Source of the DNA: Bacteroidales bacterium Bact_19
GTDB taxonomy: Bacteria > Bacteroidota > Bacteroidia > Bacteroidales > ML635J-15
DNA length: 58,024 nt
Assembly (NCBI GenBank): GCA_001603595.1
Contig: LUZK01000041.1
Span: 1-58,024 of the forward strand
Reading direction: 5' to 3'
A program made the position numbers and the translations under genes. Shown here piece by piece: positions 33,317-57,209 of the stretch; the stretch's first letter is position 1, and every line of letters starts with the position of its first letter. Below the pieces are notes generated by a model. That model did not search any database and was not told the origin of the DNA. It saw only the letters and a list, made by a program, of their open reading frames with translations.

Positions 33317-33356
33317 CTAGTTGAATATTTCAAATATTGAGCACATTTTAAACATT

Positions 33357-36300
33357 ATGAAAAAAAATATTTTTAGCATTGTTTTAGCACTATTGCTTAT
33401 GCCTGTTCAGATAGTTTTAGGGCAGAGTAACTGTGCAAATGCGGTACAATTAGACTTAAATGTTTACGGTACTTGCGGCGACATGTTTTTTACAAACGTA
33501 GATCTTAATGGAGCAGTAACTTCAGCAGATGCTCCTTTACCAACTTGCGGTAATTTTAATGCTGCCACCAAAGATATGTGGTATCGCTTTACAGTACCGG
33601 CTGGAGTTACAGAACTTGCATTTCATGCTTTTAATGCAGTTCCTCCATCTCCTGCTATTCCGCCATTAATTCCAGGGTCTCCGGCTTGTGGCCCCGGTAT
33701 GGCTGTATATAGAGGTTCATGTGGAGCATTGACTTTATTAAATTGCTTCAATGCCACTGATGGATTATTACAAAATGGTGAAATAAGATGGGAATTAATT
33801 AATGGCTTAGTCCCCGGAGAAACAATTTATGTTAGATTGTGGGAAGAAGATAACGATGTAACCTCATTCTTTTTTGCTGCATCTATTCTAACATCATTGC
33901 CTGAATCTGACTGTAATAATCCACCTCAGCTCCAAACATCAGGTTGTAATATTTTAGCTCCTGCCGGAACTATTCAGGCCCCTGATGATTGTGGTTGGAC
34001 TTCTACTGATAATGTTGTTTTTTATAGTTTTCAAGTCAATCCCGGTGATCCTCAACCTGTAGTTATAGAGGTTGAATATGGTACATGTTGGAATAATGAT
34101 GTCTCAGGATTCATACCAAGCCAACCTGAAATTCAATTTGCGGTTTATTCATGGAATGGTGTTAACTGTAGCGGTATAGGCGGCAGCCCTAACTCAGATC
34201 CGCCGAATAATACAACTTATCATGGTTGTGTAAATGGAACAGGAACTGTAACATATTCTCAAAACCTTTCCCCCGGGTTATATGTTTTAGCAATGGATGG
34301 CTATAGTGATCTTGCCGGAACGTCATTATGTATTTTTGGAATACAAGGTTCTTTTCTGGATCCTGATCCCGATCCCGATCCTGACGGACCATTGTCGGTT
34401 AGTTTAAATACCGTAAATCAGGCTTGTGGTGAAATGGGATCCGCTTCAATTACAATTAATTCATCATGTAGCGGAAATCCTACAGTAACATGGTCAACAG
34501 GGGCAACGGGTTTGTCAATTAATAATCTAGTTGCAGGGAATTATTCGGTTACTGTTTCTGATATTGCACCTTGTGTTGATACAATTATCAATTTTAATAT
34601 TTCCAATCTTTCTAATTTTGCTATTTCTATAACAACAACCGGGGACCCGTGCACTCTGCCAATTACTGCTACAGTTCAAGTTATGGGAGCTGATCCAAAT
34701 GTTGTGAGTTATTCTTGGTCTAATGGAGCAAACGGTAGAATTGTATCTCTGAATATGCCCGGAACTTATTCAGTTACAGCAACTTATGGAACCTGCACTG
34801 CAACATCTTCCATCATTGTTCAAGATGCAAATTTTAATATTAATGTTGTTTATGATTCTGCCGTCTGTGAAGGAACCACCGGTTCTGCAATGGTGCAGGT
34901 TTTAGAAGGCTCCGGAAATTATATGTATGAATGGTCAACTGGTTCCATTGCTCCGGGTATAGTAACTCTGCCCGGTCATAATTACTGTGTTACTGCAATT
35001 GATGCCACTTATGGATGCTCTCGTTCCCAATGCTTTACTGTAGGTTCGTACGAAGCAATTGAAGTTAGTATTGATAAAGAAGATATTTCTTGTAAAGGCA
35101 GTGTTGATGGTCAGGCTGTTGCTGTAGTTACAGGAGGACAAGAACCATATACATACGCCTGGAGTACATTCATGAGTTCGCAAGGAATATATAATCTTAT
35201 TTCAGGAAATTACTCAGTTACAGTTACAGATGCAAATGGATGTACCGGAACTGCAAGTGTTTTCATTGACGAACCCCCTCAATTTAATTATACCGTAACT
35301 CCTAACCAAGGCATTTGTTTGGGTCAACAAGCCACAATAAGTATAAACGCTACTGGAGGTGTTCAGCCATATACTTACTTTTGGAGTGATGTTCCCGGAT
35401 TGAATGTTAGTGCCCGAATTGTTTCTCCCACAGAAACAACAACCTACGGAGTTACTGTACTTGATGCCAACGGATGTACAGCTACACCTAAACAAACTAC
35501 TGTATTTGTTAGTCAACCTATTATCATTGATCTTTCGAAACAAGATGTATTATGTCATGGATTATGTACAGGTAGTGCAAATTTAAATATTTCGGGTGGT
35601 ATTCCGCCATTCGTTTATTCTTGGGAAAGTACTAATAATAACATTTCAAATCTTTGTGCCGGGGATTATTCTGTTACTGTTACAGATTTATATAATTGTT
35701 CAGGTTCTGTAAACTTTACAATTACACAACCTGACACTATTTACCTGTTTACTGAATACGGGTCACCAACATGTTTTGGATACACAAACGGTTATGTAGA
35801 AGTTGATGTCTTGGGAGGTGTTCCATTCTTTGACGGAACGAATTATTATTACCACTATCAATGGAGCAACGGAGCTACAACAGATTCTCTGGCGGTAGGA
35901 GCAGGTTTGCATACTGTTACCGTAACCGATGCGAATGGATGTGCTCATACAGCCTCGATACTTGTTGATCAACCAGAAGCTGTTTATGTAACAAATCCCT
36001 GGGGAGGAACAATTTGTATTGGTCAAACATTCGAAACTTTTGTTAATGCTACCGGAGGTCTTGGTCCCTATGATTTTATTTGGCAAGGTTCGGACGGATC
36101 AATTACATTTGGCCCGATTTTAACTGTAAGTCCTACATCTACAACAATTTACTCTTTAACCACAACCGATTCTCGCGGTTGTTACGGTCCCGTTAAGCAA
36201 ATCACTGTAAAAGTTAATCCTCCGATAAGTATTGTAGGGACAACCCGCTTCCCGGATCAGGTTTGTATTGGCGAAAGTGTTAATGTTGAAATGGAGATTT

Positions 36301-37280
36301 TAGGTGGAAATGGGGGACCTTATACAATTTTCATGCATGAATATGGTGTGGTAAATATGCCTCATACATTTACACCATCATCATCAGGATATTATTATTT
36401 CACAGTTTCCGATGATTGTGGCTCTCCAACAGCAACTGATTCTGTTTACGTTACTGTTCATCCATTGCCGCATGCGGCGTTTTATGCCGATAAAACAGCT
36501 TCTTGTCCTCCAGGAACATTTCAATTTACTGAAGTTACTCCAGATCAGGGACAAACTTATTTATGGGATTTCGGCAACGGAGGTTTTTCTGTACAGAAAA
36601 ATCCTGTTTATACCTATACAAGAACAGGAACATATAATGTTTCTCTCACTGTTTGGTCGCAGTATGGATGTAATAAAACCATTACATATAACAACATGAT
36701 TAACATTTATCCTGTTCCGAGAGCTGATTTTGCTGCTGTTCCCGAAGTAGTTTCTGTTTTCGACGGACAGGTCGAGTTTAATAATTACAGCGAAGGGGCT
36801 ACAAATTTCTTCTGGGATTTCGGTGATGGAAAAACAACGCTTTGGACTAATAATAAACAAATTCACACTTATACTGCAGTTGGAGATTATTATGTTGTTT
36901 TGATTGCCAAAAATCAATATGAATGCTACGACACAGTTACTAAACGCGTTAAAGTTCATGATGAATTTACCTTATATGCTCCAACAGCATTTACTCCTAA
37001 TAATGATGGTATCAACGATGTTTTCTATGTTATTGGTAACGGAATTAATAAGAATGATTTTTATCTTTGTGTATATGATAGGTTTGGAAATAGAGTTTTT
37101 GAAACTTTCACATACGACCCAGAAAATCCTTCCAGAATGGCATGGGACGGTTCCTTCAACGGCTCTGTAATTAAAGGAGATCCTGTTCTTACAAATGGTA
37201 TTTACAAGTGGTATTGTAAATTTACTGATTTCCTTGGCAGACCACACGAAGAAAGTGGAACAGTGAATCTGATAAGATAA
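33357..37280 (+). CDS. giant SprB-like/PKD surface protein with type B T9SS sorting domain
   Basis: A 1307-residue secreted protein starting at ATG 33357, with a signal peptide ending VLGQ. Order of parts: an N-terminal Cys-rich beta-sandwich region (about 25-330) that I cannot name; an Asp-Pro linker DPDPDPDPDG (335-344); about seven SprB/Ig-like repeats to about residue 1030, recognisable by GNYSVTVTDANGC-type sequences; two PKD domains (about 1035-1200) with YLWDFGNGG and FFWDFGDGK; and a gliding-motility-associated type B C-terminal domain (about 1203-1307) with APTAFTPNNDGINDVF and YDRFGNRVFET. It should be exported by T9SS and displayed on the surface, as an adhesin or motility-related protein. 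The ligand is unknown. Confidence 0.93.
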   Translation: MKKNIFSIVLALLLMPVQIVLGQSNCANAVQLDLNVYGTCGDMFFTNVDLNGAVTSADAPLPTCGNFNAATKDMWYRFTVPAGVTELAFHAFNAVPPSPAIPPLIPGSPACGPGMAVYRGSCGALTLLNCFNATDGLLQNGEIRWELINGLVPGETIYVRLWEEDNDVTSFFFAASILTSLPESDCNNPPQLQTSGCNILAPAGTIQAPDDCGWTSTDNVVFYSFQVNPGDPQPVVIEVEYGTCWNNDVSGFIPSQPEIQFAVYSWNGVNCSGIGGSPNSDPPNNTTYHGCVNGTGTVTYSQNLSPGLYVLAMDGYSDLAGTSLCIFGIQGSFLDPDPDPDPDGPLSVSLNTVNQACGEMGSASITINSSCSGNPTVTWSTGATGLSINNLVAGNYSVTVSDIAPCVDTIINFNISNLSNFAISITTTGDPCTLPITATVQVMGADPNVVSYSWSNGANGRIVSLNMPGTYSVTATYGTCTATSSIIVQDANFNINVVYDSAVCEGTTGSAMVQVLEGSGNYMYEWSTGSIAPGIVTLPGHNYCVTAIDATYGCSRSQCFTVGSYEAIEVSIDKEDISCKGSVDGQAVAVVTGGQEPYTYAWSTFMSSQGIYNLISGNYSVTVTDANGCTGTASVFIDEPPQFNYTVTPNQGICLGQQATISINATGGVQPYTYFWSDVPGLNVSARIVSPTETTTYGVTVLDANGCTATPKQTTVFVSQPIIIDLSKQDVLCHGLCTGSANLNISGGIPPFVYSWESTNNNISNLCAGDYSVTVTDLYNCSGSVNFTITQPDTIYLFTEYGSPTCFGYTNGYVEVDVLGGVPFFDGTNYYYHYQWSNGATTDSLAVGAGLHTVTVTDANGCAHTASILVDQPEAVYVTNPWGGTICIGQTFETFVNATGGLGPYDFIWQGSDGSITFGPILTVSPTSTTIYSLTTTDSRGCYGPVKQITVKVNPPISIVGTTRFPDQVCIGESVNVEMEILGGNGGPYTIFMHEYGVVNMPHTFTPSSSGYYYFTVSDDCGSPTATDSVYVTVHPLPHAAFYADKTASCPPGTFQFTEVTPDQGQTYLWDFGNGGFSVQKNPVYTYTRTGTYNVSLTVWSQYGCNKTITYNNMINIYPVPRADFAAVPEVVSVFDGQVEFNNYSEGATNFFWDFGDGKTTLWTNNKQIHTYTAVGDYYVVLIAKNQYECYDTVTKRVKVHDEFTLYAPTAFTPNNDGINDVFYVIGNGINKNDFYLCVYDRFGNRVFETFTYDPENPSRMAWDGSFNGSVIKGDPVLTNGIYKWYCKFTDFLGRPHEESGTVNLIR

Positions 37281-37337
37281 AATTCTGCATAATAAAAATT
37301 TTATTTAGCCGTTTTGCTTAGAAAGTTATTTAATAAA

Positions 37338-38807
37338 ATGTTAAAAAGTGGATACGTAATTTGCGGGTTATTTTTATTTGTTTTACTCAGCTTTTATTTT
37401 TCATCGTGCGATAGAGATATTTTTACAAATGATCCAAAGGATAAATTAGTATTTTCAACGGATACGGTAAGTTTTGATACTGTTTTTACATCTATAGGTA
37501 GTGCTACAAAATATTTTGTTGTTAAAAATTCCAATAAAAGCAAATCTATTCGAATTGACAGAATTTTTCTTGCAAAAGGCACAAATTCAAAATTTAGACT
37601 AAATATTGACGGGAGAATGTCGAATGATGTTCGGGAAGTGGAAATTTTACCCGGGGACTCGATTTTTATTTTTGTGGAGGTTACAATTGACCCATCAACA
37701 GATGATTTGCTTGAAATAGATTCTGTAATTTTTTTGTCTAACTCAAACGTACAGGATGTGAAACTTGTGGCATTCGGTCAAAATGTTACATTGATAAATG
37801 GTCGCTATATTATTAATGATACTACCTGGACAGCAGAAAAACCTATTCTTATTTATAATTCTGCCTTAATAGATACGTTTACTACCGTAAATATAATGCC
37901 TGGTGCTAAAATTTATTTTCATAGAGGGTCCTCTCTTTTTGTAAAAGGCACAATAAAAGCTCTTGGCGAAGTTGATAACCGAATAGTTTTTACGGGAGAC
38001 AGACTGGAATCATATTATTCCGACATTGCGGGACAATGGGGAGCTTTCTTAACAGATAATAATGGAAACACTGTTGGAATTTTTGGAGGAATACATTTAC
38101 TCGCCGGTTCCCGAAACAGTGTATTAAAAAACGTTGATATCAAGAATGCGATTATAGGCTTACAGGTTGATTCTTGTGTTACTCCGGGCATTCCAACAGT
38201 TATACTGAAAAATACAAAAATTGAAAATTCAAAAATAATCGGACTTTATGCTTTAGGTGCTCATATAGAAGCCGAGAATTGTGTTTTTGCTAATAGCGGT
38301 CAATATAATGTTGCATGCCTTATAGGTGGAAATTACAGGTTTATTCATTGTACCATGGCAAACTTTTGGGTTGGTAACAGACGTACACCTCAATTGATTC
38401 TGAATAATTATTATACATATAAAAATAGTTCAGGCAATACAGTAGTTTCTTACAGAGATCTTACCAATGCTTATTTTGGTAATTGTATTATTTACGGATC
38501 AAGAGAAAACGAACTACAACTCGATTTTGTTGAAGGAGCAATGTCAAATTTCAGATTTGATAATTGCTTAATAAGATCAAAAGAGTTTCAAAACATTTCA
38601 TCTGACTTTTTTATTGACAATATCTGGAATGAAAATCCAAAATTTAAAAGTATTTCTAATCCTTATGATTACAGTTTGGACACGCTATCTCCGGCAAAAG
38701 ATAAGGCAAAAATATCAATTTCAAATTTAGTTCCTCTTGATATTTTAGATAATAATCGGCTTTCGGATGGAAAACCTGATATAGGAGCTTTTGAAAGAAT
38801 TGAATGA
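37338..38807 (+). CDS. beta-helix repeat lipoprotein
   Basis: A 489-residue predicted lipoprotein (lipobox YFSSC, Cys24). The mature part begins with an Ig-like or choice-of-anchor-like segment (DTVSFDTVFTSIGSATKYF, to about 150) and then a right-handed parallel beta-helix of pectin-lyase type with repeated NVDIKNAIIGLQVDS, LKNTKIENSKIIGLYA and ENCVFANSGQYN. The C-terminus LSDGKPDIGAFERIE is typical of Bacteroidota beta-helix proteins. The ATG at 37338 is chosen over the upstream TTG because it places the lipobox normally. No catalytic residues identified; polysaccharide binding or lysis is possible. It follows the giant T9SS protein by 57 nt and its stop (38805-38807) lies 45 nt before the next start. 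Confidence 0.83.
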   Translation: MLKSGYVICGLFLFVLLSFYFSSCDRDIFTNDPKDKLVFSTDTVSFDTVFTSIGSATKYFVVKNSNKSKSIRIDRIFLAKGTNSKFRLNIDGRMSNDVREVEILPGDSIFIFVEVTIDPSTDDLLEIDSVIFLSNSNVQDVKLVAFGQNVTLINGRYIINDTTWTAEKPILIYNSALIDTFTTVNIMPGAKIYFHRGSSLFVKGTIKALGEVDNRIVFTGDRLESYYSDIAGQWGAFLTDNNGNTVGIFGGIHLLAGSRNSVLKNVDIKNAIIGLQVDSCVTPGIPTVILKNTKIENSKIIGLYALGAHIEAENCVFANSGQYNVACLIGGNYRFIHCTMANFWVGNRRTPQLILNNYYTYKNSSGNTVVSYRDLTNAYFGNCIIYGSRENELQLDFVEGAMSNFRFDNCLIRSKEFQNISSDFFIDNIWNENPKFKSISNPYDYSLDTLSPAKDKAKISISNLVPLDILDNNRLSDGKPDIGAFERIE

Positions 38808-47562: not shown

Positions 47563-47704
47563 TTATTTTAAACAGCAAATAGGTAGAATTTTAACAAAAA
47601 GTTGTATATGTTTTAAAAAAAAGTTAAATTTAGTTTGTAAAAGATTTGGTACATTATTTTTTGTGTATTATTTTTACAGCTTTCAAATTGGGTTAAGTAC
47701 TTAT

Positions 47705-50700
47705 ATGAAAAGATCTATTATGATACGAAGATTATTAAACACTTTTGCAGCACTGATATTAAGTGCAGGTTTAATGGCTCAAAGCGGAACGTTGAACGGA
47801 CGAGTCACTGATGCGAATACCGGAGAACCAATTCCATTTGCAAATATTGTTATAGAGTTAAATGGATCAACGGTTACCGGAGGTACAACAGATTTTGACG
47901 GGAATTTCAGTATTAAACCTATTCCTGCCGGTAAATATGATGTAGTTGCATCTTATGTAGGATATGCGGCAGTTAAAGTTACAAATGTACAGATTCCTGC
48001 CGGAAAAATTACTTTCCAGAATTTTACTCTTAAACCGGCTGCAGAAATTCTCAAAGAAGTTGAAGTTGTTGAATATAAAGTTCCTTTGATTTCGAAGGAC
48101 CAAACTTCTTCAGGAGGAACAGTTACTTCTGAAGAAATAACTAAAATGCCGGGGCGTTCTGCTGCAGCGGTTGCAACAACAGTAGCCGGCGTTTATTCAG
48201 AAAATGGTGAAGTTGGAAGCATAAGAGGTGCACGTTCCGAAGGAACAGTTTACTATGTGGATGGAGTAAAGGTAAGAGGGAGCTCAGCTGTACCAAAATC
48301 TGCAATAGAACAAGTACAGGTTATAACTGGTGGATTACCAGCCCAATATGGTGACGTTACCGGAGGTGTAATATCTTTAACAACTAAAGGTCCAACTAGA
48401 GAATTTTTCGGAGGAGCTGAATTTGTAACTTCTCAATATCTTGATCCCTATGGATATAATTTAGGTGGTGTAATGCTTTCCGGACCAATCATTTCTGTTA
48501 AAGAAAAAGGCTCTGAAAGAAAAAGAACTTTAGCAGGATTTTTGATTTCTGTTGAAGGAAATTATGTAAAAGATGATTATCCATCTTTTGTGGGTGAATG
48601 GAGAGCAAACGATGACGTGAAAGAATATATACGCCAAAATCCATTAAGACTTGTACAAACTGTTGATGGTGCAATTATCTATCAAAATGCCGATTATTTA
48701 CACAGCGATTCTTTCCAAAATTATAAAACTCGTGCTAATGCTGAAAATAAAGGTATTAATGCTGCAGGTAAAATTGATATTTCTCCTATCAAAGATTTAA
48801 ATTTAACTTTCGGCGGAACAGTTGATATTAGAAAAAATAGACTTTATAGTTATTCAAACCAATTATTTAATTCTGAAAATAACGGACACCAATTCTACAA
48901 TAACTGGAGAGTGTATGGCCGTTTAACTCAGAAATTTAGAGATAACAGCGATGAAGAAAAAGTTGCTATCATTAAAAATCCATTTTATACAATTCAGGTA
49001 GATTATTCAAAAACATTTAATAAACAATACAACGAAAAATTTGATGATAATTTCTTTGCATATGGTCATATTGGAAAATTTATTACTGTTCCCGAAAAAT
49101 ATTATCAATGGGGAGTAGATACATTAACAGGTTTGGAAGGATATATTCATGAAACTTTTTTCTATAGAATGACCGACTTCGAAAGAGGTCCTTATAATCC
49201 TGATTTAGCAAGATATACGGAATTATATTTTGACTACTTTAAAGACTATTATTACAAAGATAGAAATAGTGTAATACTTAATGGTGGACTATTAAACGGT
49301 ATGGGGGCACCAAGTATTTATAGCATATGGGCAAGTCCAGGTAATCCTTATGCAAGCTATACCATAAGTGATGCTACTCAGTTCAGAGTTTCTGCAGCCG
49401 GTAGTGCCGACATCAAAAACCATGAAATTAGTTTAGGATTTGAATTCGAACAGCGCAAAGATTCTTATTTTGGATTAGCACCTTTCGGATTGTGGACACT
49501 TGCACGAAGTCTTACAAATTTCCATATTCTTGAAAGAGATTTATATAATCCTATCATTTATAGAGATGCTAATGGAATTTTTAAAGATACAATTGATTAT
49601 CCACGATTGTACAGCCCTGCATCACAATCTCGATTTGACAAAAAATTCAGAGAAAGTTTAGGTCTTGCAATTAATGATCTTACTTGGTTAGATGTTGATT
49701 CTTATGATCCTGATGTATTCAAACTTGAATGGTTCAGTGCAGATGAACTATTTAATCAGGGAAGCTCATATGTTGCTTATTATGGATATAATTATTTTGG
49801 TCAGAAATTAAATTATAAACCTACTTTTGATGATTTCTTTAACAAAACAGATGAAGAAGGATATAAAGAAAGACCAATTGCTCCATTTGAACCAAACTAT
49901 GTTGCCGGATATATTCAGGATAAATTTGCTTTTAAAGATTTGATATTTAATATCGGTGTACGTGTTGACCGCTATGATGCCAATCAAATGGTTCTGAAAG
50001 ATCCTTATTTATTACATGAAGCATATACAGTAGGTGATGAAGATGAAAAGGGATTAATTCCTAATACCTTGCATCCTGATAATATCCCTTCAAATGCAGT
50101 TGTATATGTTAATGACTTGAATAATCCTACAGCAATAAATGGTTACCGTGTAGGAAGTGTTTGGTATAATGCTCAAGGTATAGAAATTGAAAACCCGAAT
50201 GCAATTGCTTCTTCAACAGGGATAGCTCCATATTTAATAGATCCTGATGCAGAGCTTAATTCAAAGGCTTTTGAAGATTATAAACCTCAGATTGTTGTTA
50301 TGCCTCGTATCTCTTTCTCATTCCCAATATCTGACGAAGCTCTGTTCTTTGCACACTATGATATTTTGTCAAAACGTCCGACTTATGCTGCAAGACTTAA
50401 TCCTATTCAATATTTATTTATCAGACAATTAAACAATGATCTTTTAAATAATCCAAATCTTAGAACTGAAAAAACTATTGACTATGAATTAGGTTTCCAA
50501 CAAAAAATTTCAAATACCTCATCATTAAAATTATCTGCTTTTTACCGTGAAATGCGTGACATGCAACAGGCCATTGCTGTTTATGGAGCTTATCCGGTTA
50601 ACTACTATACTTATGGTAATATTGACTTTGGTACTGTAAAAGGATTTAGTACAACCTATGATTTGAGAAGAACCGGAAATGTGTCAATGAGAGCCTCTTA

Positions 50701-51349
50701 TACACTGCAGTTTGCTAACGGTACAGGTTCAAGTTTTGAGTCCGGAGCTGCAATTGTTAAATCAGATAAACCTAATTTAAGAACTACTATTCCTTTAGAT
50801 TTTGACCAGAGACATAATTTAGCATTAACGGTGGATTATCGTTATGGTGGAAAAGTTAGTGGAACTACATATAATGGTCCAAAAATTTTAGGAAAGAGTA
50901 TTTTGGCAAATACAGGTGTTAATTTTGTTATAAATAGTGGTAGTGGGTCACCTTATACAAAACGTAATCGTCCAAGTGGAGGAACAATTGTTGGATCTCT
51001 TAATGGTTCGAGAAAACCTTGGAGAACAAGCATTAACATGAGAGCTGATAGAGATATCAGAGTATTATTGGTTGACAAGAAAGAAGATGGATCAAAAGAA
51101 AAGTACGGTTACATAAATGTTTATATCGAAATATCTAATTTGCTAAATTCAAGAAATGTTCTTGGTGTATACGAATATACCGGAAATCCTGATGATGATG
51201 GGTTCTTGAATTTTGCTGATTATCAGTCGCAAATTGCAACACAGAATGATGAAATAGCTTTTCGTAATTATTATGCTATGTATATCAATTCTCCCTATAA
51301 TTATAATTTACCAAGAACTATAAGGCTTGGAGTACAGTTTAATTTTTAA
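47705..51349 (+). CDS. TonB-dependent receptor of a PorV-linked system
   Basis: A 1214-residue outer-membrane receptor from ATG 47705 (MKRSIMIRRLL; a further in-frame ATG at 47720 is possible). Signal peptide ending GLMAQ, a carboxypeptidase-regulatory-like domain with SGTLNGRVTDANTGEPIPFA and YDVVASYVGYAAV, a plug domain with MPGRSAAAVATTVAGVYSEN and VYYVDGVKVRGSSAVPKSA, then a very large beta-barrel ending in GVQFNF. The 28-nt gap to the next gene indicates one transcript. No SusD-type lipoprotein follows; instead a 1377-residue secreted protein and a PorV/PorQ barrel do. Confidence 0.93.
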   Translation: MKRSIMIRRLLNTFAALILSAGLMAQSGTLNGRVTDANTGEPIPFANIVIELNGSTVTGGTTDFDGNFSIKPIPAGKYDVVASYVGYAAVKVTNVQIPAGKITFQNFTLKPAAEILKEVEVVEYKVPLISKDQTSSGGTVTSEEITKMPGRSAAAVATTVAGVYSENGEVGSIRGARSEGTVYYVDGVKVRGSSAVPKSAIEQVQVITGGLPAQYGDVTGGVISLTTKGPTREFFGGAEFVTSQYLDPYGYNLGGVMLSGPIISVKEKGSERKRTLAGFLISVEGNYVKDDYPSFVGEWRANDDVKEYIRQNPLRLVQTVDGAIIYQNADYLHSDSFQNYKTRANAENKGINAAGKIDISPIKDLNLTFGGTVDIRKNRLYSYSNQLFNSENNGHQFYNNWRVYGRLTQKFRDNSDEEKVAIIKNPFYTIQVDYSKTFNKQYNEKFDDNFFAYGHIGKFITVPEKYYQWGVDTLTGLEGYIHETFFYRMTDFERGPYNPDLARYTELYFDYFKDYYYKDRNSVILNGGLLNGMGAPSIYSIWASPGNPYASYTISDATQFRVSAAGSADIKNHEISLGFEFEQRKDSYFGLAPFGLWTLARSLTNFHILERDLYNPIIYRDANGIFKDTIDYPRLYSPASQSRFDKKFRESLGLAINDLTWLDVDSYDPDVFKLEWFSADELFNQGSSYVAYYGYNYFGQKLNYKPTFDDFFNKTDEEGYKERPIAPFEPNYVAGYIQDKFAFKDLIFNIGVRVDRYDANQMVLKDPYLLHEAYTVGDEDEKGLIPNTLHPDNIPSNAVVYVNDLNNPTAINGYRVGSVWYNAQGIEIENPNAIASSTGIAPYLIDPDAELNSKAFEDYKPQIVVMPRISFSFPISDEALFFAHYDILSKRPTYAARLNPIQYLFIRQLNNDLLNNPNLRTEKTIDYELGFQQKISNTSSLKLSAFYREMRDMQQAIAVYGAYPVNYYTYGNIDFGTVKGFSTTYDLRRTGNVSMRASYTLQFANGTGSSFESGAAIVKSDKPNLRTTIPLDFDQRHNLALTVDYRYGGKVSGTTYNGPKILGKSILANTGVNFVINSGSGSPYTKRNRPSGGTIVGSLNGSRKPWRTSINMRADRDIRVLLVDKKEDGSKEKYGYINVYIEISNLLNSRNVLGVYEYTGNPDDDGFLNFADYQSQIATQNDEIAFRNYYAMYINSPYNYNLPRTIRLGVQFNF

Positions 51350-51377
51350 TGTTTAAGATTTTTTTAAAGTTCGAAAT

Positions 51378-54300
51378 ATGAAAGGTTTGAAAAGTTTATT
51401 TTTAATTGGAGTTTTGGTTCTGTTTTCGATAGTATCTTATGCTGATGTCTGGAAAGGACAAACCAATCCAAAACCAACCCCAAGATCTACCGGAGGATGT
51501 GAACCAGGTAAAACGTCAACTGAACTTGCATATAATAATGTACGTGCATTAATACACACTGGTGGTGATATGTGGTGGGATTTGCAAGGAAAAGCAAAGT
51601 ATGAAGTACCTAAAGGTGGTGGAGTGAGCGCACTCTTTGCCGGTGCAATTTGGGTAGGAGGAAAAGATGCAAATGGACAGTTAAAATTAGCCGCACAGCG
51701 TTTTCGTCAAGATGGAATTGATTATTGGCCTGGGCCACTAATCACATCTGGGCCTGATCAGGCTTCAGTTTCGCGTGAAATTTGTCGTACTTATGATAAA
51801 CATTTTGTGATTACTAAGGATGAAGTTAAAAAATTCCGTGAATGGTGGGCATGTACAAATGATCCTGATTGTACATTAGGTGAAGATTTTGATGACTATC
51901 AAATACCTGATATTATATTGAATTGGCCGGCTCATGGCCCTGCAGGTGGGTATGATTATTATTTGGCTCCTTTCTGGGATGTTGATGGGGATGGATATTA
52001 TAACCCATTGAATGGAGATTTTCCATATTACGAATTTCCAAATGAGGGAATTACTGATGACCCTGATTGTATAAGACCAAGAAACAGAAAACCTAAATTA
52101 TTTGGTGATTACACTTTATGGTGGGTATATAATGATAAAGGTAACGTGCATACTGAGACGGGTGGTGCATCAATAGGTATGGAATTTAGAGCTCAAGCTT
52201 TTGCTTTTACCACAAATGATGAGTTGAATGATATGACATTCTATAATTATAACATTATAAACCGTTCAACTTATACATTGTTTAATACTTATTTTGGTGT
52301 ATGGACTGATGCTGATTTGGGGTATGCAAAAGATGATTATACAGGTTGTGATGTACAGCGAGGGTTAGGATACATGTATAATGGAGATGATATGGATGAA
52401 ACTGCTGAAGGTATTCAAGGTTATGGAAAACAACCTCCTTCAATAGGGATTGACTTTTTTGAAGGACCTTATCAGGATCCCGATGGTGTTGACAATCCAA
52501 ATAGTTATGATACAATAAATGGTCGTTTAGTCTTGAATTGCAATAAAGGTGATATTTTAAATGGTAATATCAATGGGTTAAATTTCGGTGATGGAACTAT
52601 TGATAACGAAAGATGGGGTATGCGTCGTTTTCTGTATTTCAATAATTATGGTACTGGAGCACATCCTGCAACTCTTGATCCTCACACCGCTATTGATCAT
52701 TATAATTATCTAACTGGATTTTGGAAAGATAATACTCCACTTTGTTATGGTGGAACAGGACATTATGCCGGAGGTGGAGATATAAATACCCCAACAGATT
52801 TTATGTTTCCCGGAAAACCTACCACTGACCCATGTGGATGGGGACAAGGTGGTATACCTAAACCTGATTGGTCTGAAGAAACAGAGCAAAATCCTGCCGG
52901 AGATCGACGTTTTGTTCAATCTGCAGGTCCGTTTACTTTAACTCCAGGTCAGGTTAATGATATTACACTTGGAGCAGTATATGCTCGAGCTCCGTCGGGA
53001 GGCCCTTGGGCTTCTGTGGAAGCTGTGCGACGTGCTGATGATAAGGCTCAAATTTTATTTGAAAACTGTTTCCGAGTTCTTGATGGTCCTGATGCTCCAG
53101 AATTGAAAATAATTGAAATGGATAGAAAGTTAATATTCCATATATATAATAAACCTAGTAGCAACAATTACTTAGAAGCTTACATTGAAAAAGATCCTTC
53201 AATCGTTTGCGGAGGCGAAATTAGCCCTTGTGATGAATATTATAGATTTCAGGGTTATCAAGTATTTCAATTAAAAGATAAGTCTGTTAGTATCTCTGAC
53301 AGATATAATAATGCTTTAGTACGCGAAGTCTTCCAATGCGATATTAAAGATGGGGTATCTCAACTTGTTAATTATTATTGGTCTGATGAATTGCAAGCAA
53401 ACATTCCTGTTCAGGAAGTTAACGGTACTGATAATGGAATTGTTCATACTTTTGTTATTGAATATGATAAATTTGCCAGTGGTGATGCTCGTTTAATTAA
53501 TCATAGAGAATATTATTTTACGGCTTTAGCTTATGGATACAATGCTAGTTTACGTTATAATCAAACTGTTCAGGAAACATTCTTAGGGCAGAAAAAGCCT
53601 TACATAGCAGGACGTAATAATATTAAAACTTACAAAGCAATTCCTCATATTAACACCCCTGAAAATAATGGCACTATATTACAATCAGAATATGGTGATG
53701 GAGTTGAAATCACTATGTTAGAAGGACATGGAAACGGTAATCAAATAATTGATTTATCGGAAGAAACAATAAATCAAATTATGAGTGGATATCCATGGAA
53801 GGTTGATGCTAGAAAGTATGTTCTTGGCCGTGGTCCTATAAATGTTAAAATTATTGATCCTCTCAATGTTCCTGAAGATGAATATGAGTTGCGATTTGTT
53901 AATATAGATATTAATTCTTATGGATTATGTGGTTCCACAAATGTAGATTTAGCACAATCATTATATAAACCTTTCGATTATATATTAATTAATTCTAAAG
54001 GAGATACTATTTACAGTGAAGTTAAAGTTCCTTATGGTGACGGCTACGAACAGTTATTCCTAAATTATGGTTTTTCTATTACGATAAGTCAAAAGAATTT
54101 TGCAGGATATAGGGATCGTAATGATTTTCAGAATGGATTTTTAGAAGCCACCATAGAATTTAAAGATCCAACCAAACCTTGGTTATTGTTCTTACCAGAT
54201 GGAGACGGTTTTGACGAAATGAACTGGATAAGAGTCGGAACATACAAAACTAATGAAACCGGAGATTGTGCGGATAAGAGTTGGGATGATATAATTGGAT

Positions 54301-55511
54301 GGGACGATGAACAAATTTATGAAAAAATACTTAATGGCACTTGGGCTCCATTTAGATTTGTTAACTCAGGTAGATATGGCTTCGCTCTCGATGGAGCAAG
54401 AAATTTCCAAAAAATCGAACGTTTCGAGCCATTGTCAAGCGTTGATTTAGTAATTACAAGTGATACTTCGAAATGGACAAGATGCTGTATCGTTGAAATG
54501 TCTGAAAATGAATGGATTCCAGATCCAGATTGTCCGGGTTTATTTAAATTAAAGTCGCCATGGGTTAATTATCTTAGTAAAGGAAATGCTTTAAAATATG
54601 CATTAAGAAAAGATCCATCGGTTGACAAAATGGGTAATCCAGATAATAGTGGTACTTACGGAATGGGATGGTTTCCCGGCTATGCTATAGATGTTCGTAC
54701 AGGTCGTAGACTAAACATAATTTTTGGTGAAGATTCATGGTTAATCGGTGATAATGGTGGTGATATGAAATGGAATCCGACTTCAAATATTTATTCTCAA
54801 ACCGGACCTGTATTTGGAGGTAAACATGTAATTTATATAATGGGAGACAATCAAAACTTTACACAAGCTGCCTTTAATGCTCCTCACTATGATTCATGTA
54901 AATGGATTTACGAAAACTTAAAGAAGTATGATGAAACCGGAGTTGCTGCTACTTCTCTAAATCGAGCATGGGCAGCAGCAATGTGGGTATCAATTCCATT
55001 ACAAAATCCAAATTTTGATTTTCTTGCTACAGATGTGAAAATTCGACTACGTGTTGCAGGTCCTTACCACAAAGGGATGAATGAATTTGCTGTTATGGAT
55101 TCTGCTAATGTTAAGAATGATAACTTCCCATTATTTAAATTCCATACGAGAGATGTTAAGACTATTAAGAGCGATAATCCTACAGCTGTTAATGCTTTAG
55201 ATATTATACGTGTTGTGCCTAACCCTTACTATGGTAATTCTTATTATGAAAATACACAGTTGGATAACTACGTGAAGATTACCAACTTACCAGAAAAATG
55301 TATCATAAGCATCTATAATATTAATGGAACTTTGATACGACAATTTAATAAGGATAATAAGAACACTTATTTAACTTGGGATTTAAAAAATACATATGGT
55401 ATTTCAATTGCCAGTGGTGTTTATATTATTCACATAAATGCTCCCGGAATCGGAGAAAAAGTGATTAAGTGGTTTGGAGCTTTGCGTCCAATTGATTTAA
55501 ATAATTTCTAA
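51378..55511 (+). CDS. giant secreted protein, probable T9SS cargo
   Basis: A 1377-residue exported protein: signal peptide ending SYADV, long beta-rich body with several Trp/Asp/Gly-rich segments such as DYYLAPFWDVDGDGYYNP and GDYTLWWVYNDKGNVHTE, an internal segment DTAEGIQGYGKQPPS-like with Gly/Pro, and a C-terminal region (about 1270-1377) with RVVPNPYYGNSYY, CIISIYNINGTLIRQF, ASGVYIIHINAP and a terminal RPIDLNNF. That tail has the T9SS type A / FlgD-like pattern, with an extended end. No enzyme motif is recognised. It sits between the receptor (28 nt) and the PorV/PorQ protein (20 nt), so it is likely the cargo or surface partner of that system. Confidence 0.85.
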   Translation: MKGLKSLFLIGVLVLFSIVSYADVWKGQTNPKPTPRSTGGCEPGKTSTELAYNNVRALIHTGGDMWWDLQGKAKYEVPKGGGVSALFAGAIWVGGKDANGQLKLAAQRFRQDGIDYWPGPLITSGPDQASVSREICRTYDKHFVITKDEVKKFREWWACTNDPDCTLGEDFDDYQIPDIILNWPAHGPAGGYDYYLAPFWDVDGDGYYNPLNGDFPYYEFPNEGITDDPDCIRPRNRKPKLFGDYTLWWVYNDKGNVHTETGGASIGMEFRAQAFAFTTNDELNDMTFYNYNIINRSTYTLFNTYFGVWTDADLGYAKDDYTGCDVQRGLGYMYNGDDMDETAEGIQGYGKQPPSIGIDFFEGPYQDPDGVDNPNSYDTINGRLVLNCNKGDILNGNINGLNFGDGTIDNERWGMRRFLYFNNYGTGAHPATLDPHTAIDHYNYLTGFWKDNTPLCYGGTGHYAGGGDINTPTDFMFPGKPTTDPCGWGQGGIPKPDWSEETEQNPAGDRRFVQSAGPFTLTPGQVNDITLGAVYARAPSGGPWASVEAVRRADDKAQILFENCFRVLDGPDAPELKIIEMDRKLIFHIYNKPSSNNYLEAYIEKDPSIVCGGEISPCDEYYRFQGYQVFQLKDKSVSISDRYNNALVREVFQCDIKDGVSQLVNYYWSDELQANIPVQEVNGTDNGIVHTFVIEYDKFASGDARLINHREYYFTALAYGYNASLRYNQTVQETFLGQKKPYIAGRNNIKTYKAIPHINTPENNGTILQSEYGDGVEITMLEGHGNGNQIIDLSEETINQIMSGYPWKVDARKYVLGRGPINVKIIDPLNVPEDEYELRFVNIDINSYGLCGSTNVDLAQSLYKPFDYILINSKGDTIYSEVKVPYGDGYEQLFLNYGFSITISQKNFAGYRDRNDFQNGFLEATIEFKDPTKPWLLFLPDGDGFDEMNWIRVGTYKTNETGDCADKSWDDIIGWDDEQIYEKILNGTWAPFRFVNSGRYGFALDGARNFQKIERFEPLSSVDLVITSDTSKWTRCCIVEMSENEWIPDPDCPGLFKLKSPWVNYLSKGNALKYALRKDPSVDKMGNPDNSGTYGMGWFPGYAIDVRTGRRLNIIFGEDSWLIGDNGGDMKWNPTSNIYSQTGPVFGGKHVIYIMGDNQNFTQAAFNAPHYDSCKWIYENLKKYDETGVAATSLNRAWAAAMWVSIPLQNPNFDFLATDVKIRLRVAGPYHKGMNEFAVMDSANVKNDNFPLFKFHTRDVKTIKSDNPTAVNALDIIRVVPNPYYGNSYYENTQLDNYVKITNLPEKCIISIYNINGTLIRQFNKDNKNTYLTWDLKNTYGISIASGVYIIHINAPGIGEKVIKWFGALRPIDLNNF

Positions 55512-55531
55512 AATTTATTAAAGTATAAGAT

Positions 55532-56638
55532 ATGAAGAAATTTAAAGTAATATCCGGTATAATCATAGTAACAATGATTTTATCATTGTCGAATCCCATA
55601 TTTGCCGGTAATGAGCAAAGAGCCGGGTCAAGTGGAGCATCAGAGCTTTTAATAAATCCTTGGGCTAGGAGTTCCGGTTTAGGTAATGCTAACATAGCAA
55701 ACATAATGGGTGTTGAAGGGATGGGACTTAATGTTGCAGGTTTGGCATTTACAAAAAAGACCGAATTAATATTTACCAACACTCAGTGGTTGCTCGGTTC
55801 GGGTGTTATTATTAACAGTGGAGGTTTTTCCACTAAAGTTGGTGAGGCAGGTGCTCTAGGCATAAGTATAATGAACATCAACTGGGGTGAAATTGAAATT
55901 ACTACTGACGCATTACCCGAAGGAGGTATTGGTAGATATTCTCCGACATTTAGTGTTATTGGACTTTCATATGCTCGTGAATTCTCGAACAGTATTTATG
56001 GTGGATTAACTTTGAAAGTTATAAACGAAAGTATATTTAACGTAGGAGCTTCCGGAGCTGCCTTAGATGCTGGAATCCAATATGTAACAGGAGTTGGAAA
56101 AGATAAAGCAGGAAATAGAAATAGAGATAATTTACGCTTTGGGATTACTATGCAAAACGTTGGTACTACCATGAAATATACCGGCGATGGGATGTCTTAC
56201 ATGGGTTGGTCAACCAATGGAACTAGTATGACAGTTGAACATCGTAGCCAAGAATTTGAATTACCATCTTTAATTAGAATAGGATTTTCATATAAAATGA
56301 GATTATTTGGTGTTGTTAACGAAAACGAAGAAGTTGATGCAAAACATTTTCTAACCTTGATGGGTAGCTTTACTTCTAATTCTTTTACAAAGGATCAATA
56401 TCATTTCGGATTAGAATATGAATTTAATAATATTCTTTTCTTGAGAGGTGGTTATATGTATGAAGATGGAATAAATACCGTTAATACTCAAACAGCATTG
56501 ACAGGTCCTACTGCCGGTATGAGTTTGCAAGTACCAATTAATAAAGAAAATAAATCTGTATTGGCAATTGATTATTCATATAGATTTACAAATCCTTTTA
56601 ATGGTATTCATACTTTTGGAGTAAGAGTAACTTTATAA
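55532..56638 (+). CDS. PorV/PorQ-family outer membrane protein
   Basis: A 368-residue outer-membrane beta-barrel with signal peptide ending PIFAG. N-terminal residues GASELLINPWARSSGLGNAN and GVEGMGLNVAGLAF, followed by alternating barrel strands and a C-terminal FGVRVTL, match the PorV/PorQ family (UPF0164/DUF3308-like). PorV is the T9SS shuttle that binds cargo C-terminal domains. Here it is third in a unit with a TonB-dependent receptor and a giant secreted protein, and would fit a dedicated export or surface-retention role. A chromosomal porV for general T9SS may be elsewhere. Confidence 0.88.
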   Translation: MKKFKVISGIIIVTMILSLSNPIFAGNEQRAGSSGASELLINPWARSSGLGNANIANIMGVEGMGLNVAGLAFTKKTELIFTNTQWLLGSGVIINSGGFSTKVGEAGALGISIMNINWGEIEITTDALPEGGIGRYSPTFSVIGLSYAREFSNSIYGGLTLKVINESIFNVGASGAALDAGIQYVTGVGKDKAGNRNRDNLRFGITMQNVGTTMKYTGDGMSYMGWSTNGTSMTVEHRSQEFELPSLIRIGFSYKMRLFGVVNENEEVDAKHFLTLMGSFTSNSFTKDQYHFGLEYEFNNILFLRGGYMYEDGINTVNTQTALTGPTAGMSLQVPINKENKSVLAIDYSYRFTNPFNGIHTFGVRVTL

Positions 56639-56677: not shown

Positions 56678-56707
56678 AAAAGAAATCCTGTCAAAGGGAT
56701 TTCTTTT
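56678..56707 (+). terminator. hairpin/terminator overlapping the greA transcript start
   Basis: An 11-bp stem AAAAGAAATCC (56678-56688) with GGATTTCTTTT (56697-56707), 8-nt loop, T-rich 3' arm. It would terminate the receptor/PorV operon 40 nt after its last stop. It starts 1 nt after the greA -7 box, so the greA mRNA would begin inside or next to its left arm. Confidence 0.75.
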
Positions 56708-56735
56708 GTTTTATATCAAGTTAAAAAAAATGATT

Positions 56736-57209
56736 ATGTCGGAAATAGTGTACTTAACGGCTGAAGGTTTACAGAAACTTAAAGAAGAATTAGACAGACT
56801 TATTAATATCGAAAGACCGTCCATTAGTAAGCAAATAGCCGAAGCAAGAGATAAAGGCGATCTTTCGGAAAATGCTGAATATGATGCTGCTAAAGAAGCT
56901 CAGGGCCTTCTTGAAATGAAAATAAGTAAATTGCAACAAACATTACTTAATGCCAGAATTATTGATCCGAAACAGATTGATACTAATTCTGTTCAAATTT
57001 TAAATAAAGTTACTTTAAAAAATTTAAAAACTGGCACTACAATGGAATATACTATTGTTTCGGAGTCTGAGGCTAATCTGAAAGAAAAAAAGATTTCTGT
57101 AAACACTCCTATCGCCAAGGGATTACTTGGCAAAAAAGTTGGTGATGTTGTAGAAATACAAGTTCCTAATGGTGTTGTTACTTTTGAAATAATAAACATT
57201 TCGATTTAA
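56736..57209 (+). CDS. greA: transcription elongation factor GreA
   Basis: Stimulates cleavage of backtracked RNA by RNA polymerase. From ATG 56736 the length is 157 residues, the family norm, starting MSEIVYLTAEGLQKLKEEL. N-terminal coiled coil with the acidic tip in GDLSENAEYDAAKE (Asp42, Glu45) and a C-terminal FKBP-like domain with TPIAKGLLGKKVGDVVEI. An upstream in-frame start at 56706 lies in the terminator hairpin and is rejected. The HIT gene starts 1 nt after the greA stop. Confidence 0.96.
   Translation: MSEIVYLTAEGLQKLKEELDRLINIERPSISKQIAEARDKGDLSENAEYDAAKEAQGLLEMKISKLQQTLLNARIIDPKQIDTNSVQILNKVTLKNLKTGTTMEYTIVSESEANLKEKKISVNTPIAKGLLGKKVGDVVEIQVPNGVVTFEIINISI

Follow-up and report, generated by a model that had tools for sequence, protein, structure and literature searches.

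A conserved three-gene unit of Bacteroidota joining a TonB-dependent receptor, a large protein with a type IX sorting domain and a PorV-family barrel: a candidate surface complex

Three adjoining genes near the end of a 58,024-nucleotide stretch of Bacteroidales bacterium Bact_19 (contig LUZK01000041.1, referred to below as the window, which is contig 94 of a 3.07 Mb genome in 186 contigs) encode a TonB-dependent receptor, a giant secreted protein, here called the cargo, and an outer-membrane barrel of the PorV/PorQ family. The association of the three genes goes beyond chance: they constitute a unit, the trio, that is conserved in order across the phylum Bacteroidota and whose members diverge together. 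The products of the trio probably form a single surface complex of the outer membrane, in which the cargo, exported by the type IX secretion system (T9SS), would be retained by its C-terminal domain (CTD) on a barrel of its own and would serve as the partner of the receptor.

The three genes

The features to which the text refers are as follows.

47720..51349, forward strand: TonB-dependent receptor of about 1209 amino acids with CarboxypepD_reg-like and Plug domains, in a frame open from 47663
51378..55511, forward strand: cargo of 1377 amino acids, an open reading frame (ORF) in which the CTD is the only curated domain
51498..53078, forward strand: cargo residues 41 to 567 (approximately), predicted by a structure model to be a beta-supersandwich like the N-terminal domain of GH15, GH65, GH94 and GH116 enzymes
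55179..55511, forward strand: cargo CTD of the long, PorU-like class according to profiles and predicted fold, its tail kept in 31 aligned Bacteroidota sequences
55532..56638, forward strand: outer-membrane barrel of the PorV/PorQ family, distinct from PorV, PorQ and PorV2 according to family models and relatives in the structure database
56706..57209, forward strand: GreA-like gene (an ORF), a marker of synteny outside the system

The tight spacing of the three genes, from which an initial annotation of the window had started, is confirmed: 28 nt separate the first two genes (51349 to 51378), and 20 nt the last two (55511 to 55532). The receptor frame is open from a GTG codon at 47663, and the initial annotation placed its start at ATG 47705. 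As the methionine at residue 6, counted from this ATG, is invariant in 31 aligned sequences, the likeliest start is 47720.

The receptor contains a CarboxypepD_reg domain (69.5 bits, cut-off 32.3) and a Plug domain (PF07715, 37.3 bits, cut-off 23.9), the latter marking it as a TonB-dependent receptor; the Pfam receptor barrel model is absent among its matches. A SusCD pair can be rejected, since the window receptor matches no SusC model at E≤0.1. The receptor had been described as lacking a SusD partner, and no SusD model is indeed found among the matches of the three proteins. Two distant trio receptors score 87.1 and 53.1 bits with the SusC model TIGR04056, under its cut-off of 368 bits.

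Conservation of the gene order

A single scan with the cargo yielded at least 78 loci. The counts of gene order refer to the 78 listed, all of which bear the titles of metagenome-assembled or uncultured organisms. The receptor lies directly upstream of the cargo in 70 of them, one locus (L080) being scored as receptor-less on account of its split cargo gene. The barrel follows downstream in 62 of the 66 loci with room for it, and both neighbors are present in 61 of these 66. Where a barrel is adjacent (65 loci), the start of a GreA-like gene lies no more than 400 nt from it in 53.

The cargo profile matches 67 of 395 genomes of the phylum at 1e-30, and 8 of the 98 sampled genomes of its own class. 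At least 58 of the 67 cargo genomes have a match to the trio barrel no more than 4.5 kb downstream on the same strand; in nine, there is no barrel match within 4.5 kb among the matches listed. Loci were also fetched by the position of the cargo or the barrel, never by that of the receptor, and all 30 proved to be complete trios, 28 of them outside the class of the window. These 30 include three (in genomes G243, G132 and G124) whose cargo had stayed short of 1e-30, two with the receptor cut by an end (L098, L131) and two of the own class (L108, L109); the count excludes L105 and L110, which are cut by a contig end, L106 and L107, each a 2-kb stretch from another genome, and L111, a surplus piece of genome G337.

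Several copies of the trio are present in genomes G030, G352 and G353. When extra copies were chosen by their CTD match, 17 of 20 turned out to be complete trios within 400 nt, a count made with models rebuilt beforehand with distant members, some of which lie in those 20 stretches. The first models, applied with a filter dropping ORFs overlapped by longer ones, show all three genes in 11 of the 20.

The order therefore recurs across families and classes of Bacteroidota and is not confined to close relatives, which would have spoken against the initial proposal. The complete loci, 61 of 66 in the list and 30 of 30 among those fetched, likewise exclude a local accident.

Some loci depart from the simple arrangement. 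L115 (G337:C18:199001-219000) carries two complete trios in tandem together with a further barrel and a piece of a cargo. At L182:1481-8367, the place of the receptor is taken by an Fn3-rich protein with an FlgD_ig-like C-terminal domain, after which the cargo and the barrel follow.

Co-divergence of the three proteins

The alignments of the trio comprised 56 loci with near full-length genes and the window. Distance matrices of 49 loci and the window correlate with r of 0.91 to 0.96 among the receptor, the cargo body and the barrel, compared with 0.78 to 0.86 for each of these against the GreA-like protein. The partial correlation given GreA is 0.87 for receptor and body, 0.76 for body and barrel, and 0.74 for receptor and barrel.

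Copies within one genome have an identical species history. Over 45 such pairs from 6 genomes, r is 0.89 for receptor and body, 0.88 for receptor and barrel, and 0.77 for body and barrel, and none of 2000 label shuffles reaches any of these values. The correlation of the CTD with the barrel in the same pairs is 0.65 (p 0.0015). The three proteins diverge together, both between loci and between copies inside one genome, and trio units have apparently been duplicated and retained as units.

Column identities in these alignments rest on differing sets of rows (57, 57 and 31), and for this reason the CTD, the body and GreA were compared over the same 50 sequences, where their mean pairwise identities are 0.64, 0.50 and 0.65, respectively.

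The barrel is distinct from PorV, PorQ and PorV2

The barrel scores 145.5 bits with the PorV family model (NF033709, cut-off 90), and it stays below the cut-offs of the equivalog models of PorV (NF033710, 69.8 bits against 250), PorQ (NF033711, 49 bits against 220) and PorV2 (NF052325, 43.3 bits against 325). Six stretches of the genome match the PorV family. The PorV of the genome (469.9 bits) adjoins the C-terminal part of PorU, its PorV2 (460.3 bits) adjoins PorU2, and its PorQ scores 369.6 bits. As the barrel fails the PorV cut-off and the genome encodes a separate PorV, PorQ and PorV2, it cannot be the general PorV, and its description as a dedicated PorV paralog, which would have lost its ground had this been the only copy in the genome, is supported.

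A tree of 88 barrels, its root placed on the PorV side, groups the 72 that come from trio-type loci, counting those of the cut or incomplete loci L105, L110 and L182 and the extra one of L115, without an intruder and apart from 13 PorV. PorQ and PorV2 are represented in this tree by one sequence each, the single PorV2 being due to the fact that none was picked up beside the PorU2 of other genomes. The conserved order, the co-divergence and the separateness of the barrel from the genome's own PorV, PorQ and PorV2 together bear out the idea, put forward at the outset, that the three genes belong together.

The cargo C-terminal domain

The only family matches of the 1377-residue cargo are CTD models, in agreement with its first description as a protein with a T9SS-like tail and no other domain. 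It scores 25.5 bits with the T9SS type A CTD model TIGR04183 (cut-off 23) and 19.1 bits with Pfam Por_Secre_tail (PF18962), under the cut-off of 27. The CTD part of the PorZ model matches the trio CTD at 1.1e-8. The predicted fold is that of a T9SS CTD, with PorZ as its best match (Z 10.7, 89 aligned, 2.5 Å) in a VIA-align comparison that, for the C-terminal part of the cargo, covers the CTD only; the CTD of RemZ from the SprA-PorV complex and that of PorU are matched as well. A type B CTD was rejected, because no model of this type, TIGR04131 or CHU_C, matches the cargo at E≤0.1.

The trio CTD belongs to a particular class of type A domains. Although 118 stretches of the genome match the type A CTD model, the trio CTD profile finds below 1e-3, besides the cargo, only PorU (4.5e-8) and PorU2 (4.6e-5), a whole-genome test that is independent of any hand-picked sample of substrates. 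The CTDs of ordinary substrates in this genome are shorter, with a median of 69 amino acids from the PNP motif to the end, as against 97 for the trio and 95 for PorU. All 57 near trio-type CTDs and 49 of the 51 distant ones contain the motif W[DN][GLM], which is also found in 13 of 13 PorU and 5 of 7 PorU2, and in none of 36 sampled substrates, a sample that leans to typical CTDs because it was drawn from the upper part of the 118 matches. The end of the domain is a tail conserved over the 31 aligned sequences. In genomes G064 and G178, too, PorU2 and PorU, identified by position, are among the listed matches of the trio CTD profile, as is, in G064, a further protein of 782 amino acids (C61). 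Within the genome of the window, the cargo CTD is by sequence nearer to the PorU and PorU2 CTDs than to the CTDs of ordinary substrates.

Relatives of the cargo body also occur outside trios. In five of them, one from L069 and four from L086, the CTD is of the ordinary short kind, and no barrel adjoins. In the stretch L086:5911-18731, five cargo relatives lie in tandem, with neither a recognized barrel nor a full receptor. One of them is truncated where the stretch ends; the four complete ones, of about 800 amino acids, are those with ordinary short CTDs. At L069:3357-11092, the relative with the ordinary CTD directly follows an M4-type metallopeptidase bearing a sorting domain of its own. In four Bacteroidales loci, a second cargo follows the barrel (L012:12512-16624, L014:12317-16468, L016:12567-16709 and L019:12363-14542). 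The copy in L019 is cut by the contig end, and the three complete ones stop soon after KWFG, without the conserved tail of the first cargo.

The cargo body

No domain of the body exceeds a cut-off in the window cargo (Pfam and NCBIfam), in five distant cargos (Pfam) or in four (NCBIfam), and at E≤0.01 none of the solved structures is related in sequence. The N-terminal part, modeled with a pLDDT of 81.9, resembles the beta-supersandwich of GH15, GH65, GH94 and GH116 enzymes. VIA-align superimposes it on 9ju0 with Z 17.6 (253 aligned, 3.2 Å) and on 7fe3 with Z 16.2 (229 aligned, 3.1 Å), the match to the aldose epimerase 3nre being weaker (Z 11.7, 199 aligned, 3.2 Å); Foldseek finds 9ju0 with an E-value of 1.2e-5. 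In the GH15, GH65, GH94 and GH116 enzymes, an (alpha/alpha)6 catalytic barrel comes after the beta-supersandwich. The two part models of the cargo, which were folded separately, show no helical catalytic barrel in their secondary structure. The modeled fold hints at sugar binding by the cargo.

Cargos range from about 750 to 1480 amino acids over the loci seen, and from 1008 to 1269 in the fetched complete trios outside the own class. The trio at L172:2740-9360 has the shortest cargo seen, of about 750 amino acids.

Proposed assembly of the surface complex

The genome encodes the SprA translocon of the T9SS (2671.9 bits) as well as PorU and PorZ, and SprA is present in all 67 cargo genomes, versus 303 of 395 genomes overall. 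The initial annotation had spoken of a specialized export or uptake complex. Because SprA accompanies every cargo genome, a surface complex anchored on a barrel of its own is favored over a separate export route.

By combining these observations, a possible course of assembly can be described. The N-terminus of the cargo is hydrophobic and signal-like, as judged by eye, with no lipobox seen in the same way. The cargo would be exported through Sec first and the SprA translocon next, as its signal-like N-terminus and CTD suggest. Its CTD would be captured by the barrel of the third gene, instead of by the general PorV, and would stay uncleaved. The precedent comes from PorU and PorZ: according to the review PMC10202324 (passages), the CTD of PorU stays on PorV and that of PorZ on PorQ. 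The authors of this review suggest that cognate PorV-like barrels may shield CTDs from cleavage, and the trio fits this idea. The extracellular body, with the supersandwich foremost, would then lie over the receptor and capture a ligand or hand it over for TonB-powered import, so that the cargo would be to the receptor what the SusD lipoprotein is to SusC.

The steps of this scheme draw on different evidence: export and capture on homology, retention on the CTD class and on precedent, and uptake on the nature of the receptor and the gene order. Retention of the cargo and a role in uptake are inferred. Carried further, the scheme would make the trio an uptake system widespread in the phylum, in which the partner of the receptor is supplied by the T9SS and not by the surface-lipoprotein route, and in which a PorV-family barrel holds an uncleaved CTD permanently. 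Such a system would possibly be older than the split of the Bacteroidia from the other classes of the phylum. This wider proposal is tentative, its chances falling a little short of even.

Several points weigh against a retained cargo and a dedicated complex. According to the abstract and passages of a 2025 paper (PMC12618676), type A CTDs are all recognized by PorV. Between loci, the partial correlation of the CTD with the barrel is 0.41, the lowest of the set. Three of the 20 extra copies are without a complete trio (L165, L167 and L182), and L056 and L060 have a trio-type CTD with no barrel in the stretch. The node of the tree that unites all trio-type barrels has a local support of 0.249. 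At E≤1, the trio CTD profile misses the genome's own PorZ CTD, which is also without W[DN][GLM] and whose score with the PorU CTD model is no better than with the substrate model; this poor fit counts against the argument from the CTD class, because by precedent the PorZ CTD is retained as well. One of the 36 substrates (L211, 19.6 bits with the trio CTD profile) equals several PorU CTDs. In genomes outside the Bacteroidia (for example G337, G353 and G148), dozens of ORFs match the PorU model in its C-terminal part, and as PorU-like CTDs sit there on many proteins, the CTD class does not set retained partners apart and carries less weight as an argument. For the cargo body, the Foldseek TM-scores of the supersandwich are low (0.26 and 0.22, both for the same 9ju0 chain, 0.26 being the best), and this common fold by itself demonstrates no function.

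Alternative roles

The strongest alternative, although an unlikely one, is that the barrel acts as a second shuttle, taking the cargo from SprA to PorU for cleavage and attachment and then being recycled, with the receptor co-transcribed for regulation and working alone. The barrel is a member of the PorV family, the genome encodes PorU and PorZ, and PorV is taken to be the recycled shuttle of type A substrates in the excerpts of PMC12618676. A receptor working alone, however, does not agree with the co-divergence of receptor and cargo, which persists within one genome (r 0.89), nor with the retention of the receptor in all 30 fetched loci, and the nearest relatives of the cargo CTD are the CTDs of PorU and PorU2 instead of substrate CTDs.

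Less likely still is a sensing or adhesion unit, in which the cargo would bind a surface or a partner and the receptor, importing nothing, would relay a signal or provide an extra anchor. TonB-linked receptors with N-terminal extensions can signal, and the cargo is large and presumably exposed; the receptor nevertheless contains a Plug domain, and at E≤0.1 none of the family matches of the cargo is to an adhesin or a repeat.

A pore or scaffold akin to FadL or BamG, with the T9SS protein merely as its lid in the manner of BamH on BamG, is very improbable: PorV and BamG are termed FadL homologs and the extracellular loops of BamG bind BamH (PMC12578637, excerpts), the trio barrel profile has weak matches to TbuX and TodX (E 0.005 to 0.009) and one distant trio barrel a weak match to BamG (23.1 bits, cut-off 250), but the score with the PorV family model is far higher (145.5 bits) and the best solved relative of the trio barrel is PorV (1.8e-15).

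Relation to known systems

In SusC/SusD nutrient uptake systems, the TonB-dependent receptor has a Plug and, at its N-terminus, a CarboxypepD_reg-like domain; it is encoded next to a surface partner, and such systems occur in multiple copies. The surface complex favored here is similar to them (and to RagA/RagB) in the receptor domains, in the adjoining, presumably surface-exposed partner and in the several copies found in some genomes. It differs in that the partner is a T9SS protein with a CTD, SusD being absent, and in that the third member is nearly always a PorV-family barrel. With PorU-PorV, PorZ-PorQ and PorU2-PorV2 the trio shares the pairing of a PorV-family barrel with a CTD protein, PorU and PorU2 being of the long CTD class too; its CTD protein, however, is neither a sortase nor PorZ, its barrel fails the respective cut-offs, and a receptor is added.

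Excerpts of two papers describe type B CTD proteins as being held on PorP-like barrels (PMC9143113) and as having cognate PorP/SprF barrels (PMC12618676); for type A, the excerpts of the latter describe no specialized shuttles. In the trio, too, a presumed surface protein is encoded beside what would be its own shuttle or anchor barrel, but the CTD has the type A fold (closest to the CTDs of PorZ, PorU and RemZ) and the barrel is PorV-like. The BamG-BamH pair, in the excerpts of PMC12578637, resembles the trio as a FadL/PorV-like barrel bearing a large surface protein, but BamG and BamH are part of the BAM complex, whereas the trio combines a T9SS protein with a TonB-dependent receptor. The trio varies these known kinds, receptor with surface partner and CTD with barrel, and there is a real chance that it deserves a separate class.

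Searches of the open-licence PMC literature for PorV-like proteins and paralogs and for receptor-T9SS units yielded no description of the trio, which is weak as an absence, and a term search of a 2024 translocon paper (PMC10994853) gave no hits for 'PorV homol', 'paralog' or 'PorQ'. The trio may have been overlooked, as the cargo occurs in few of the sampled genomes of its own class (8 of 98) and the 78 listed loci all come from metagenome-assembled or uncultured organisms.

If the proposal is correct, surface complexes are built in one more way besides SusD-type lipoproteins and PorP/SprF-type anchors, and TonB-dependent uptake can employ a partner exported by the T9SS. PorV-family genes lacking an assigned function would gain a testable role. 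A PorV relative tied to a single cargo and a single receptor in many lineages would also break the rule, stated in PMC12618676, that PorV recognizes all type A CTDs.

Neighboring genes and other observations

The gene at 56706..57209 is taken here to be greA-like and the one that follows it to be HIT-like, both names being provisional. Elsewhere in the window, at 33321-38807, a SprB-repeat protein with a type B CTD is followed by a protein of 497 amino acids in the place where a PorP/SprF barrel might be expected; the latter has no family over its cut-off. The PorU gene of the genome seems to be split over two contigs, G000:C88 (model positions 1-1038) and G000:C122 (738-1095), the two parts overlapping.

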